Below the pieces are notes generated by a model that was not told the DNA's origin, searched no databases, and saw nothing but the letters and a program-made list of their open reading frames with translations. A program made the position numbers and the translations under genes. From Bacillota bacterium (lineage in GTDB: Bacteria > Bacillota > UBA4882 > UBA10575): a DNA stretch of 46,979 bases. The stretch covers positions 1-46,979 of the forward strand of contig JAAYHY010000089.1 in NCBI GenBank assembly GCA_012735135.1, written 5' to 3'. Positions 11,259-43,786 of the stretch are shown one piece after another (position 1 is the stretch's first letter; each line of letters begins with the position of its first letter).

Positions 11259-12446
11259 TTAGCGGCGGACGATCGCGTCGGTCATTCGGGCCACACGGAC
11301 CATTTCCTTCACGTCGTGTACCCGGACGAGATCGGCACCGCGGCTGATCCCGATGGCAACCGTGGCGGCGGTCCCTTCACGGCGTTGGTCCACAGGTAGA
11401 TCTAAGACATGGCCAATTACGGATTTTCTGGATGTGCCCAGGAGAATCGGCGCCCCCAAACTTTTTAGTTCGTCTAAGCGGTCGATGATGGTGAGGTTAT
11501 CCGCTGGTGTCTTGCCAAACCCGATTCCCGGGTCGATAATCACCTTTTCCCGGGGCAGGCCATGGGCTGCCGCCAGCTCAATCCCGGCACGGAGAAAGGA
11601 AGCCACTTCGGCCATTAAATCGGTATAATTTGGAGTGCTTTTGTTATGCATTATAATTGCCGGTACCTGCGCGGCGGCGACCACCTTTACCATTTCCGGA
11701 TCTTTTTGCAACCCCCAGATATCATTTATTAAGTCGGCGCCGGCCGCTAAGGCCGCTTTGGCGACCGCCGGTTTATACGTGTCAACCGAGATTGGAAGGG
11801 GGGATTTTTGGGCCAACACTTCCAGGACAGGAAGCAGGCGTTGTTTCTCTTCTTCCTCACCCACCGGGGTCGCGCCCGGCCGGGTTGATTCGGCGCCGAG
11901 GTCCAACAAATCGGCCCCGGCGGCTAAAAACTCCTCCGCTTGGTGGAGAACTTTGGTAATTAATTGATCTTGTCCGTAAAGGCCGTCTCCGGAGAAAGAG
12001 TCGGGGGTGATGTTGATGATCCCCATGATATAAGTTCTTTTCCCCCATTCGAAGCAGTGGTTTTTAATGGTCAAGGGGGACGGTCGTTGGTTAAGGGCCA
12101 GCAATAAGCGGTTTAATTCTTCCGCCAAAGCGGAAAGGCCGAAGGGCTGCCGGGGTAGTAAGGTTAATAAACGCTGGTATTGGGTCCGGGTGCCCATAAT
12201 GATGGCTTCTCCCTTCTCCGGCCCCAGATAAGCCAGATGCGCGCCGAGGGCAACTTCTCCTCCTTTGGCGAGCATCTCCTGTTTTAAAATATTCGCTGCT
12301 TGGGCGGGGATATTCCCGACTTTGACGATGATGAATTCACCTTTACCAAGCATTAACTCTATTCCTTCCGGGGAGACGCCAATCCGGGTGAACTCTTTCC
12401 GGATTTCCCCCGGATCGCTTGCGGTAATTAGCCGTAAAGAAAACAT
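11259..12446 (-). CDS. folP: dihydropteroate synthase with N-terminal extension
   Basis: Condenses the pterin pyrophosphate with p-aminobenzoate. The TIM-barrel catalytic domain begins near residue 139 with IMGIINITPDSFSGDG; it contains DLGAESTRPGA, PISVDTYKPAVA, DPGIGFGKT and the end motif GADLVRVHDVKEMVRVARM. About 135 residues precede it and do not belong to the core enzyme. Similar long FolP forms occur in clostridia; the role of the extra domain is unknown. The leader contains the structured element described at 12497-12670, but that element looks plus-strand. AAGGAG lies 12 bases before the ATG. Confidence 0.94.
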   Translation of the reverse strand: MFSLRLITASDPGEIRKEFTRIGVSPEGIELMLGKGEFIIVKVGNIPAQAANILKQEMLAKGGEVALGAHLAYLGPEKGEAIIMGTRTQYQRLLTLLPRQPFGLSALAEELNRLLLALNQRPSPLTIKNHCFEWGKRTYIMGIINITPDSFSGDGLYGQDQLITKVLHQAEEFLAAGADLLDLGAESTRPGATPVGEEEEKQRLLPVLEVLAQKSPLPISVDTYKPAVAKAALAAGADLINDIWGLQKDPEMVKVVAAAQVPAIIMHNKSTPNYTDLMAEVASFLRAGIELAAAHGLPREKVIIDPGIGFGKTPADNLTIIDRLDELKSLGAPILLGTSRKSVIGHVLDLPVDQRREGTAATVAIGISRGADLVRVHDVKEMVRVARMTDAIVRR

Positions 12447-12496
12447 CTGTGGTCTCTTCTCCTTCTACCTAGAAATGCCGTCGATCTTGGCGACTT

Positions 12497-12670
12497 GAAT
12501 TTCTTCATAAGTATGCTTAGCGAGGCTAAAAGCGGGTCGCGTGACAGGGAGGTCGTGCGCCGCTTTTGGTTCACGAGAAACCATAAAGCGGCTGCCCGCT
12601 TTTGACCGGGGCTGAGCTGCAGAATACTCGAAGAAATTCACTGGAGCAAGAAAACACCATTCTGCCCCGG
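12497..12670 (+). ncRNA. candidate structured RNA of unknown family
   Basis: No gene covers 12447-12790. Nested helices on the plus strand: 12497-12506 with 12630-12639 (10 perfect pairs); 12510-12514 with 12624-12628; 12515-12521 with 12611-12617 (one G.U); 12528-12536 with 12595-12603 (9 perfect pairs). Inside the last helix are two hairpins: 12539-12545/12552-12558 (two G.U) and 12560-12571/12579-12591 (7+5 pairs, one bulge, loop CACGAGA). CCGGGGC (12606-12612) can pair with GCCCCGG (12664-12670) outside the rod. The three G.U pairs become A-C mismatches on the minus strand, so the plus strand is favoured. I see no promoter or terminator for it and do not recognise the family. A MITE-like DNA element is the main alternative. 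Confidence 0.55.
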
Positions 12671-12673
12671 CGG
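12653..12673 (+). repeat. intergenic motif, copy A
   Basis: AACACCATTCTG followed by CCCCGGCGG. The same core appears on the minus strand at 14484-14505 and at 43732-43752. It lies 13 bases after the closing helix of the structured element and includes its potential pseudoknot strand. Confidence 0.5.
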
Positions 12674-12751
12674 AGATTCTAACTTGGATTTGAATTTACT
12701 ACTTCCTTTTTCAACTTCGTCGTTACCGGGGTAATTCCTTTCTGAACCGCG

Positions 12752-12790: not shown

Positions 12791-13555
12791 CTACGTTTGG
12801 TCGTGCAGGAGCTCACGCAGACGGCCTAGGGCGGCCTTCTCCAAGCGGCTGATTTGGACCTGTGAGACCCCGAATCTGGTGGCAAGCTCACTTTGGGTTT
12901 TTTCACCGAAGAACCGTTCTTCGATAATCATTCGTAACCTGGGGTCCAATTGTTGGAGGGCCTGGCGGAGGGCAAAATCTTCAACCAGTTCTTCTTCCAT
13001 CCCGGTACCGACTTGATCTTCAAAGGTTAATGGTGTCCCTTCTTCCTCATAAACAACCTCTTGTAGCGAAAAAAGGGGTTTGCTCACTTCTAAGGCGGTG
13101 GCGATCTCTTCCCGGCTGAACTTGGTAAGGGCGGCCAGATCGGTTAAGGTCGGTTCTCTTCCGTTTTCCGCCAAGTAGGCATTACGCGCGTGCATCACCT
13201 TTTGGGCTACTTCTTTTATCCCCCGGCTTACTTTAAGCGTGCCATCGGTCCGCAGGTACTGTTTGATCTCGCCAATAATCAGCGGGACGGCGTAAGTGGA
13301 AAACTTAACATTCAAATCGGGGTTAAAACGCTCAACCGCCTTGAGCAGACCAAGGGCGCCGATTTGGACCAAATCATCATATTCCACGCCCCGTCCGGTA
13401 AACCGCCCGACAATACTCTTGACCAGGCGAAGGTTGCGCTCGATCAGAATGGCTTTTGCCTCTTGGTTCCCGGCGGCAACCTGCTTTATTAGGAGGATAG
13501 TTTCCTCTTCGGAGAGGAGATGGGGATCGGTTTGCCCCTCAAGGTTGATCGCCAT
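12791..13555 (-). CDS. sigF: sporulation sigma factor sigma-F
   Basis: First forespore-specific sigma factor. Region 2 shows EYDDLVQIGALGLLKAVERF and FSTYAVPLIIGEIKQYLR; region 3 follows GREPTLTDLAALT; region 4 has the helix-turn-helix TQSELATRFGVSQVQISRLEKAALGRLREL. 254 residues, full length. Its ATG lies inside the last codons of spoIIAB (17-base overlap), so the two are probably translationally coupled. Held inactive by SpoIIAB until released by SpoIIAA. The operon is dacF, spoIIAA, spoIIAB, sigF as in Bacillus. Confidence 0.97.
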   Translation of the reverse strand: MAINLEGQTDPHLLSEEETILLIKQVAAGNQEAKAILIERNLRLVKSIVGRFTGRGVEYDDLVQIGALGLLKAVERFNPDLNVKFSTYAVPLIIGEIKQYLRTDGTLKVSRGIKEVAQKVMHARNAYLAENGREPTLTDLAALTKFSREEIATALEVSKPLFSLQEVVYEEEGTPLTFEDQVGTGMEEELVEDFALRQALQQLDPRLRMIIEERFFGEKTQSELATRFGVSQVQISRLEKAALGRLRELLHDQT

Positions 13556-24370: not shown

Positions 24371-24556
24371 GGAAACCCCGCCATGTCGTTTACGGCTGAA
24401 GATTACCTGAACCCGCTCTCACAGGTGGGCGCCTCCCGGATGCTTTATGTGTCCTTCTCTCAGAAAGGCTTACATGCCGACAACCGAAGTACAGCTCCCC
24501 AGGTAAATGTGTTGGTTCAAAACATCAGCTTCGTCACGCGCACAGCAGGGTTTCCC
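24371..24556 (-). ncRNA. ssrS: 6S RNA
   Basis: RNA that mimics an open promoter and binds sigma-A RNA polymerase in stationary phase. About 186 nt. The closing stem pairs GGAAACCCTGC (24555-24545) with GCGGGGTTTCC near 24381-24371, with one U.G pair that exists only on the minus strand. The 3' half contains GGCGCCCACC and GGGTTCAGG, which resemble the conserved GCACCCACC...GGTTCA part of 6S RNAs. It lies between aspS and the cyclo-ligase gene; 6S neighbours both kinds of gene in other bacteria. Ends are approximate. Confidence 0.8.
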
Positions 24557-43714: not shown

Positions 43715-43781
43715 CTTTGCCAGTACTTACCCAGCCGGGGCTGAATGGTGTTCTCCAGCGACTTGAATTTTCTTCGCAAAG
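43715..43781 (-). repeat. intergenic motif, copy C
   Basis: Contains the shared core AACACCATTCAGCCCCGG (minus strand) and, on the plus strand at 43758-43775, GCGACTTGAATTTTCTTC, which matches 12490-12506 of the structured element except for one extra T. Outer bases CTTTGC (43715) and GCAAAG (43776) can close the unit as a hairpin. It directly abuts the stop of the membrane protein gene. Confidence 0.55.
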
Positions 43782-43786
43782 CACGA

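Follow-up and report, generated by a model that had tools for sequence, protein, structure and literature searches.

The gene-free gap between folP (11259-12446, minus strand) and sigF (12791-13555, minus strand) in the window, by which the whole stretch of 46,979 nucleotides analysed is meant, contains a degenerate copy of a palindromic element that is dispersed in the source genome. To judge from the changes accumulated among its copies, the plus-strand fold of this element and the sequences of both its hairpin loops are under selection, and the loop motif, read on the plus strand, is by its sequence the recognition site of CsrA/RsmA. With somewhat better than even probability, the repeat is an amplified, TwoAYGGAY-like CsrA-binding RNA, scattered as a decoy for CsrA.

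Structure of the copy in the window

The first-pass annotation of this DNA had described a highly ordered rod of stacked helices carrying two hairpins. Such stacked helices and both hairpins are present at 12496-12640, and the predicted RNA fold of 12470-12700 reaches -85.8 kcal/mol on the plus strand (z -4.5) and -78.7 kcal/mol on the minus strand (z -4.7), with none of 200 shuffled sequences as stable in either case. A chance hairpin was rejected on the basis of these shuffles and of the covariation among copies. The features of the window copy are:

12489 to 12690, plus strand: window copy of the element, degenerate (blastn against 30 full-length copies)
12496 to 12506, plus strand: outer stem, 5' arm TGAATTTCTTC, a perfect inverted repeat of 11 bp with 12630-12640
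12516 to 12618, plus strand: Y-shaped core, a three-way junction of the basal stem and two hairpins (covariance models R1, 96.9 bits, and R2, 86.8 bits)
12528 to 12536, plus strand: junction basal stem, 5' arm AAAAGCGGG, perfect over 9 bp with 12595-12603 (helix 1 covariation)
12538 to 12559, plus strand: hairpin 1, 8-bp stem, loop AGGGAG at 12546-12551 within GACAGGGAGGUC, CsrA-type site CA(N)GGA(N)G intact
12560 to 12591, plus strand: hairpin 2, loop UUCACGAGAAA, CsrA-type site damaged (GGA to CGA; family consensus UUCAGGAGGAA)
12595 to 12603, plus strand: junction basal stem, 3' arm CCCGCTTTT, perfect over 9 bp with 12528-12536 (helix 1 covariation)
12630 to 12640, plus strand: outer stem, 3' arm GAAGAAATTCA, a perfect inverted repeat of 11 bp with 12496-12506
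12650 to 12671, plus strand: orphan 3' outer arm GAAAACACCATTCTGCCCCGGC, whose 5' partner GCCGGGGCNGAATGGTGTT is missing here (comparison with intact copies)

Perfect arms of 8 bp are also found at 12559-12566 and 12585-12592. Across 12489-12671 the window copy is 86% identical to the reference copy (blastn); its 3' tail GGAGATTCTAACTTGGATTTG is present and its 5' outer arm is missing. A 7-base pairing between 12606-12612 and 12664-12670, regarded earlier as a possible pseudoknot or switch, does exist (CCGGGGC/GCCCCGG), but the pseudoknot is rejected, since in intact copies GCCCCGG pairs with CCGGGGC of the 5' outer arm, which the window copy has lost, so that the pairing is best taken as the leftover of an orphan arm. 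The inner partner of this pairing reads CGGAGC in most copies. The window copy thus has one of two CsrA sites intact, one loop mutated and one outer arm lost, and it is probably a remnant that does little or nothing by itself.

Selection on the fold and on the loops

The alignment of 57 cores (A4) takes in genus g3, which is diverged, as well as GC-rich subfamilies. Of its 33 pairs, 26 carry changes on both sides, and the covariation score is 0.453, compared with 0.172 in shuffles and 0.031-0.106 for slid partners. Because A4 was fitted to the structure of the model and the copies are related, weight is put on how wide this margin is, together with the result of A1, an independent alignment of 29 cores made with plain MAFFT, where 12 of 33 pairs changed on both sides vs 4.0 in shuffles. 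The RNA-like plus-strand fold seen in the first pass is in this way borne out by many compensatory changes across the copies, which that annotation had named as the check to make in homologues.

The loop sequence is CA(N)GGA(N)G in both hairpins, and variation is confined to the N positions. Among the 57 copies, the columns of the hairpin 1 loop are C in 55, A in 57, N free or absent, G in 54, G in 56, A in 56, N free and G in 56; those of the hairpin 2 loop are C in 52, A in 55, N free or absent, G in 54, G in 55, A in 55, N free and G in 51. Column identity is 0.92 for A/GGA, 0.43 for the free N of the loops, 0.83 for stems and 0.77 for other unpaired positions. The stems directly below the loops have been rewritten several times, and hairpin 2 presents the same loop on GGTTC/GAACC, GTCC/GGAC, GAGGAC/GTCCTC, GAGTAC/GTACTC, GGGAC/GTCCC or GGGCC/GGCCC. 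The CsrA consensus obtained by SELEX is RUACARGGAUGU, with ACA and GGA invariant, and it usually lies in a six-base loop with AC/GU paired (PMC7652899); it is also given as (A/U)CANGGANG(U/A) (PMC6692469). In the repeat, this motif occurs in hairpin loops and as paired sites. Most SELEX ligands have shorter stems than the repeat, which counts against the CsrA reading.

Relation to known RNAs

The window fold has no Rfam match at gathering score, and none even at E <= 10 when trivial matches are set aside; the Rfam search agrees with the first-pass annotation, which did not recognise the structure as one of the known RNAs it considered. For good copies, the best Rfam match is TwoAYGGAY (RF01731), on the same strand, with 37.6 bits for L208 (g3), 34.6 bits for L009 (source genome), 33.5 bits for L198, 33.0 bits for L209 and 32.0 bits for L146. 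The gathering score of that family, 43 bits, is reached by none of the tested copies; the window copy has no match to TwoAYGGAY at E <= 10, and L172 has no match to it either. As the scores lie below the threshold, the repeat is named TwoAYGGAY-like and is not called a member. Both have a long stem and a three-way junction, tandem G-A pairs in a stem, and two hairpins whose loops read A(N)GGA(N). In the 57 aligned copies two such hairpins share a common stem, and the middle loop base is frequently missing or other than Y. The stem sequences differ, however, and the repeat is a high-copy palindrome with long outer arms; its repeat form and outer palindrome are what is new with respect to TwoAYGGAY. 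That family was listed among probable RNAs without a cis-regulatory role, with occurrences in the human gut, gamma-Proteobacteria and Clostridiales (PMC2864571), and its tandem G-A pairs were noted when it was proposed to be a CsrA-binding sRNA (PMC4333381). No validation of CsrA binding by TwoAYGGAY is reported in the literature searched.

With CsrB/CsrC and RsmX/Y/Z of Gammaproteobacteria, the repeat shares paired GGA hairpin loops and the proposed sequestration of CsrA. However, it has two strong sites per RNA where theirs are many, it sits at many loci and not at one to three, and FliW is present in its genomes.

CsrA and FliW in the genomes carrying the repeat

The csrA gene is encoded in 11 of the 12 genomes with blastn matches, and csrA and fliW are present through most of the family, beside flgL in G010; this genome has csrA and no element, which counts against the decoy. 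The CsrA of the source genome (MLVLTRK...SVHREEVY...) has the typical core and the C-terminal extension, and FliW is encoded as well. The flagellin leader of the source genome (L241 ~1400-1494, G000:C155) contains a hairpin, GGAACACGGAAUGUUUC, and a Shine-Dalgarno sequence, CAAGGAGG, both of CsrA type. It shows the same arrangement as the B. subtilis-type hag/FliW leader, where the motif occurs inside a hairpin and again across the Shine-Dalgarno sequence; such a leader is a cis target, whereas the repeat sits in unrelated gaps. The absence of csrA and fliW from genus g3, which would have weighed against the CsrA reading, was considered and rejected, as the contigs end in flgL-fliW (within fliW in G014, C79, and G009, C144; within flgL in G015, C111), and csrA is unassembled rather than shown to be absent. 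In all three of these related assemblies the break falls at almost one and the same point, flgL-fliW, just before the usual position of csrA.

In the mechanism proposed here, the plus strand would be transcribed into an RNA that folds as a long rod topped by the two-hairpin junction, and a single CsrA dimer would find two sites on each RNA, as it does on RNAs of the RsmZ or CsrB type. Many genomic copies could jointly lower free CsrA, alongside the protein antagonist FliW, and intact copies may have been spread by some form of transposition or copying that works on their common ends (TACCCAGCCGGGGCNGAATGGTGTTCTCC ... GGAAACACCATTCNGCCCCGGC). More tentatively, a mobile-element-like repeat may have amplified a CsrA-sponge RNA to tens of copies, which would place CsrA under both FliW and the dosage of repeat RNA; we regard this as possible rather than probable. 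For a long time CsrA sponge RNAs were known from no group but the Gammaproteobacteria, TwoAYGGAY being a Clostridial case proposed in 2014, and a 2020 review described the joint action of FliW and sRNAs on CsrA as undetermined in any species (PMC7652899). With 57 aligned copies that keep the CsrA motif almost unchanged on stems that were rewritten, and with CsrA and FliW encoded in the same genomes, this question becomes testable; the element may also illustrate how a repeat can assemble and multiply a regulatory decoy.

Dispersal and the possibility of a selfish element

A sequence search of the source genome found about 40 full or partial copies. Intact copies are palindromes of ~212 bp whose outer arms are GCCGGGGCNGAATGGTGTT and AACACCATTCNGCCCCGGC, and conserved tails adjoin them; the length of the element ranges from ~210 to 290 bp, and it sits in intergenic gaps. 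The window holds a second copy:

43731 to 43782, plus strand: partial copy, 5' end only (CAGCCGGGGCTGAATGGTGTTCTCCAGCGACTTGAATTTTCTTC; pattern match at 43735-43756 and direct reading)

By blastn, the element is found in 12 of 41 related genomes, all from a single family of uncultured Bacillota. The core covariance model, built on all subfamilies, matches 88 cores; these lie in 15 of the 16 family genomes, and 13 other genomes of the class have none. Such matches, by Infernal or blast, do not in themselves establish a function. A scan of public genomes gave a single match, in an unclassified Bacillota MAG (JAKOVI010000119.1), and viral contigs, plasmids and phages gave no match to the element. 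Some copies occupy the same site in two species (L004/L078, L237/L239, L227/L229, L221/L228 and L145/L146). Ends of the element recur with different interiors, with 57 end matches against 0 in the control.

The genome carries several modular palindromic repeat families that share ends. The terminal module TACCCAGCCGGGGCNGAATGGTGTTCTCC also occurs next to other interiors, for example a second palindrome, TTGTCGACTCACCCGGCTTTGA...TAGCCGGCGTGAGCGACTA, and modules with other interiors are seen at L012 (~500), near 1501 in L045, L053 and L057, and in numerous gaps between genes of G000. Short CTCGTCGCTCGT-type repeats form clusters immediately upstream of elements, at ~1320-1420 in L146 and in the 5' flanks of L002, L048 and L054.

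The main alternative to a CsrA decoy, which we consider unlikely, is a purely selfish palindromic element of MITE or REP type, recognised as folded single-stranded DNA by a trans-acting transposase or nuclease and with no role in CsrA regulation. Its dispersal, the ends shared by differing interiors, the abundance of partial copies and the absence from orthologous sites are what such an element would give, and strand-specific folding also suits single-strand DNA transposition. In one flanking gene pair, the element lies in opposite orientations in L076 (G008) and L230 (G013), through either inversion by the palindrome arms or independent insertions, and this too fits a selfish element. Like MITEs and REPs, the repeat is short and dispersed, has inverted-repeat ends, lacks coding capacity and has left many partial copies. 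Transposon or MITE identity had been given at the outset as an observation that would speak against an RNA; of this, a dispersed element with terminal inverted repeats was indeed found, but no target-site duplication, and the interior shows an RNA-like constraint, with a Y structure, compensatory changes and invariant loops that set it apart from MITEs and REPs. No clear target-site duplication was recognised at the window site when it was compared with seven empty gaps, nor was any extended form seen whose ends enclose a transposase. A Y1/RAYT (IS200/IS605-type) transposase is missing from 14 of 16 family genomes, the source genome among them, and mobilisation of RAYT/REP type was rejected on this ground. 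A DNA-acting enzyme would, moreover, leave unexplained why the free positions of the loops are exactly those that CsrA leaves free.

Which strand is functional

The CsrA motif can be read only on the plus strand. In hairpin 1, tandem G-A pairs replace a regular stem in concert (CGAG/CGAG for CGCG/CGCG, 13 vs 8 of 29 copies); on the other strand they would be U-C mismatches, which speaks for the plus strand. Most full copies contain 5-9 GGA on the plus strand and 0-4 on the minus strand, and covariance-model scores are far higher on plus, for example 121 vs 26 bits for L003. The excess of G-U over A-C pairs (45 vs 30) leans the same way and is not significant (p=0.11).

Gene orientation is an argument against the plus-strand reading. 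Of the 42 copies that could be classified, 24 have their plus strand antisense to the genes on either side and 7 have it collinear with both (p=0.003), and the 3' end of a neighbouring gene faces the 3' end of the element at 32 of 42 sites (p=0.0009), counts in which orthologous sites are not independent and gene calls are crude. The antisense position relative to both neighbours, pointed out in the first pass for the window copy, is therefore the commonest arrangement in the family. Since it prevails at most sites, the plus strand is not simply carried in mRNAs and, if transcribed, would need its own promoter; no sigma-70-like promoter was recognised on the plus strand of the window copy. The same counts suit a functional minus strand, collinear with the flanking genes and, where the genes on both sides are collinear with each other, in mRNA sense for 24 of 31 copies; this strand could act as a hairpin at mRNA 3' ends (stability, attenuation or termination) or pair its UCC loops with Shine-Dalgarno sequences in the manner of C-rich-loop sRNAs. 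This is a rather remote alternative, as the concerted G-A pairs and GGA loops are meaningful on plus only and the covariance models favour that strand; in the minus reading of A(N)GGA, an invariant U beside a variable or deleted base is of no use for Shine-Dalgarno pairing. A Shine-Dalgarno mimic on the plus strand and an anti-Shine-Dalgarno on the minus strand were both rejected on this ground, since an A that stays constant next to a base that varies or is missing does not suit pairing.

An independent sporulation RNA tied to sigF, proposed earlier from the position next to that gene, is scarcely credible, because the element stands beside sigF in this single genome, the folP-sigF gap of all seven congeners is without it, which makes its place there a lineage-specific insertion, other copies adjoin many unrelated genes, and the local copy lacks one arm and one loop. 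The window also encodes a 6S RNA (RF00013) at 24371-24554 on the minus strand (99 bits).
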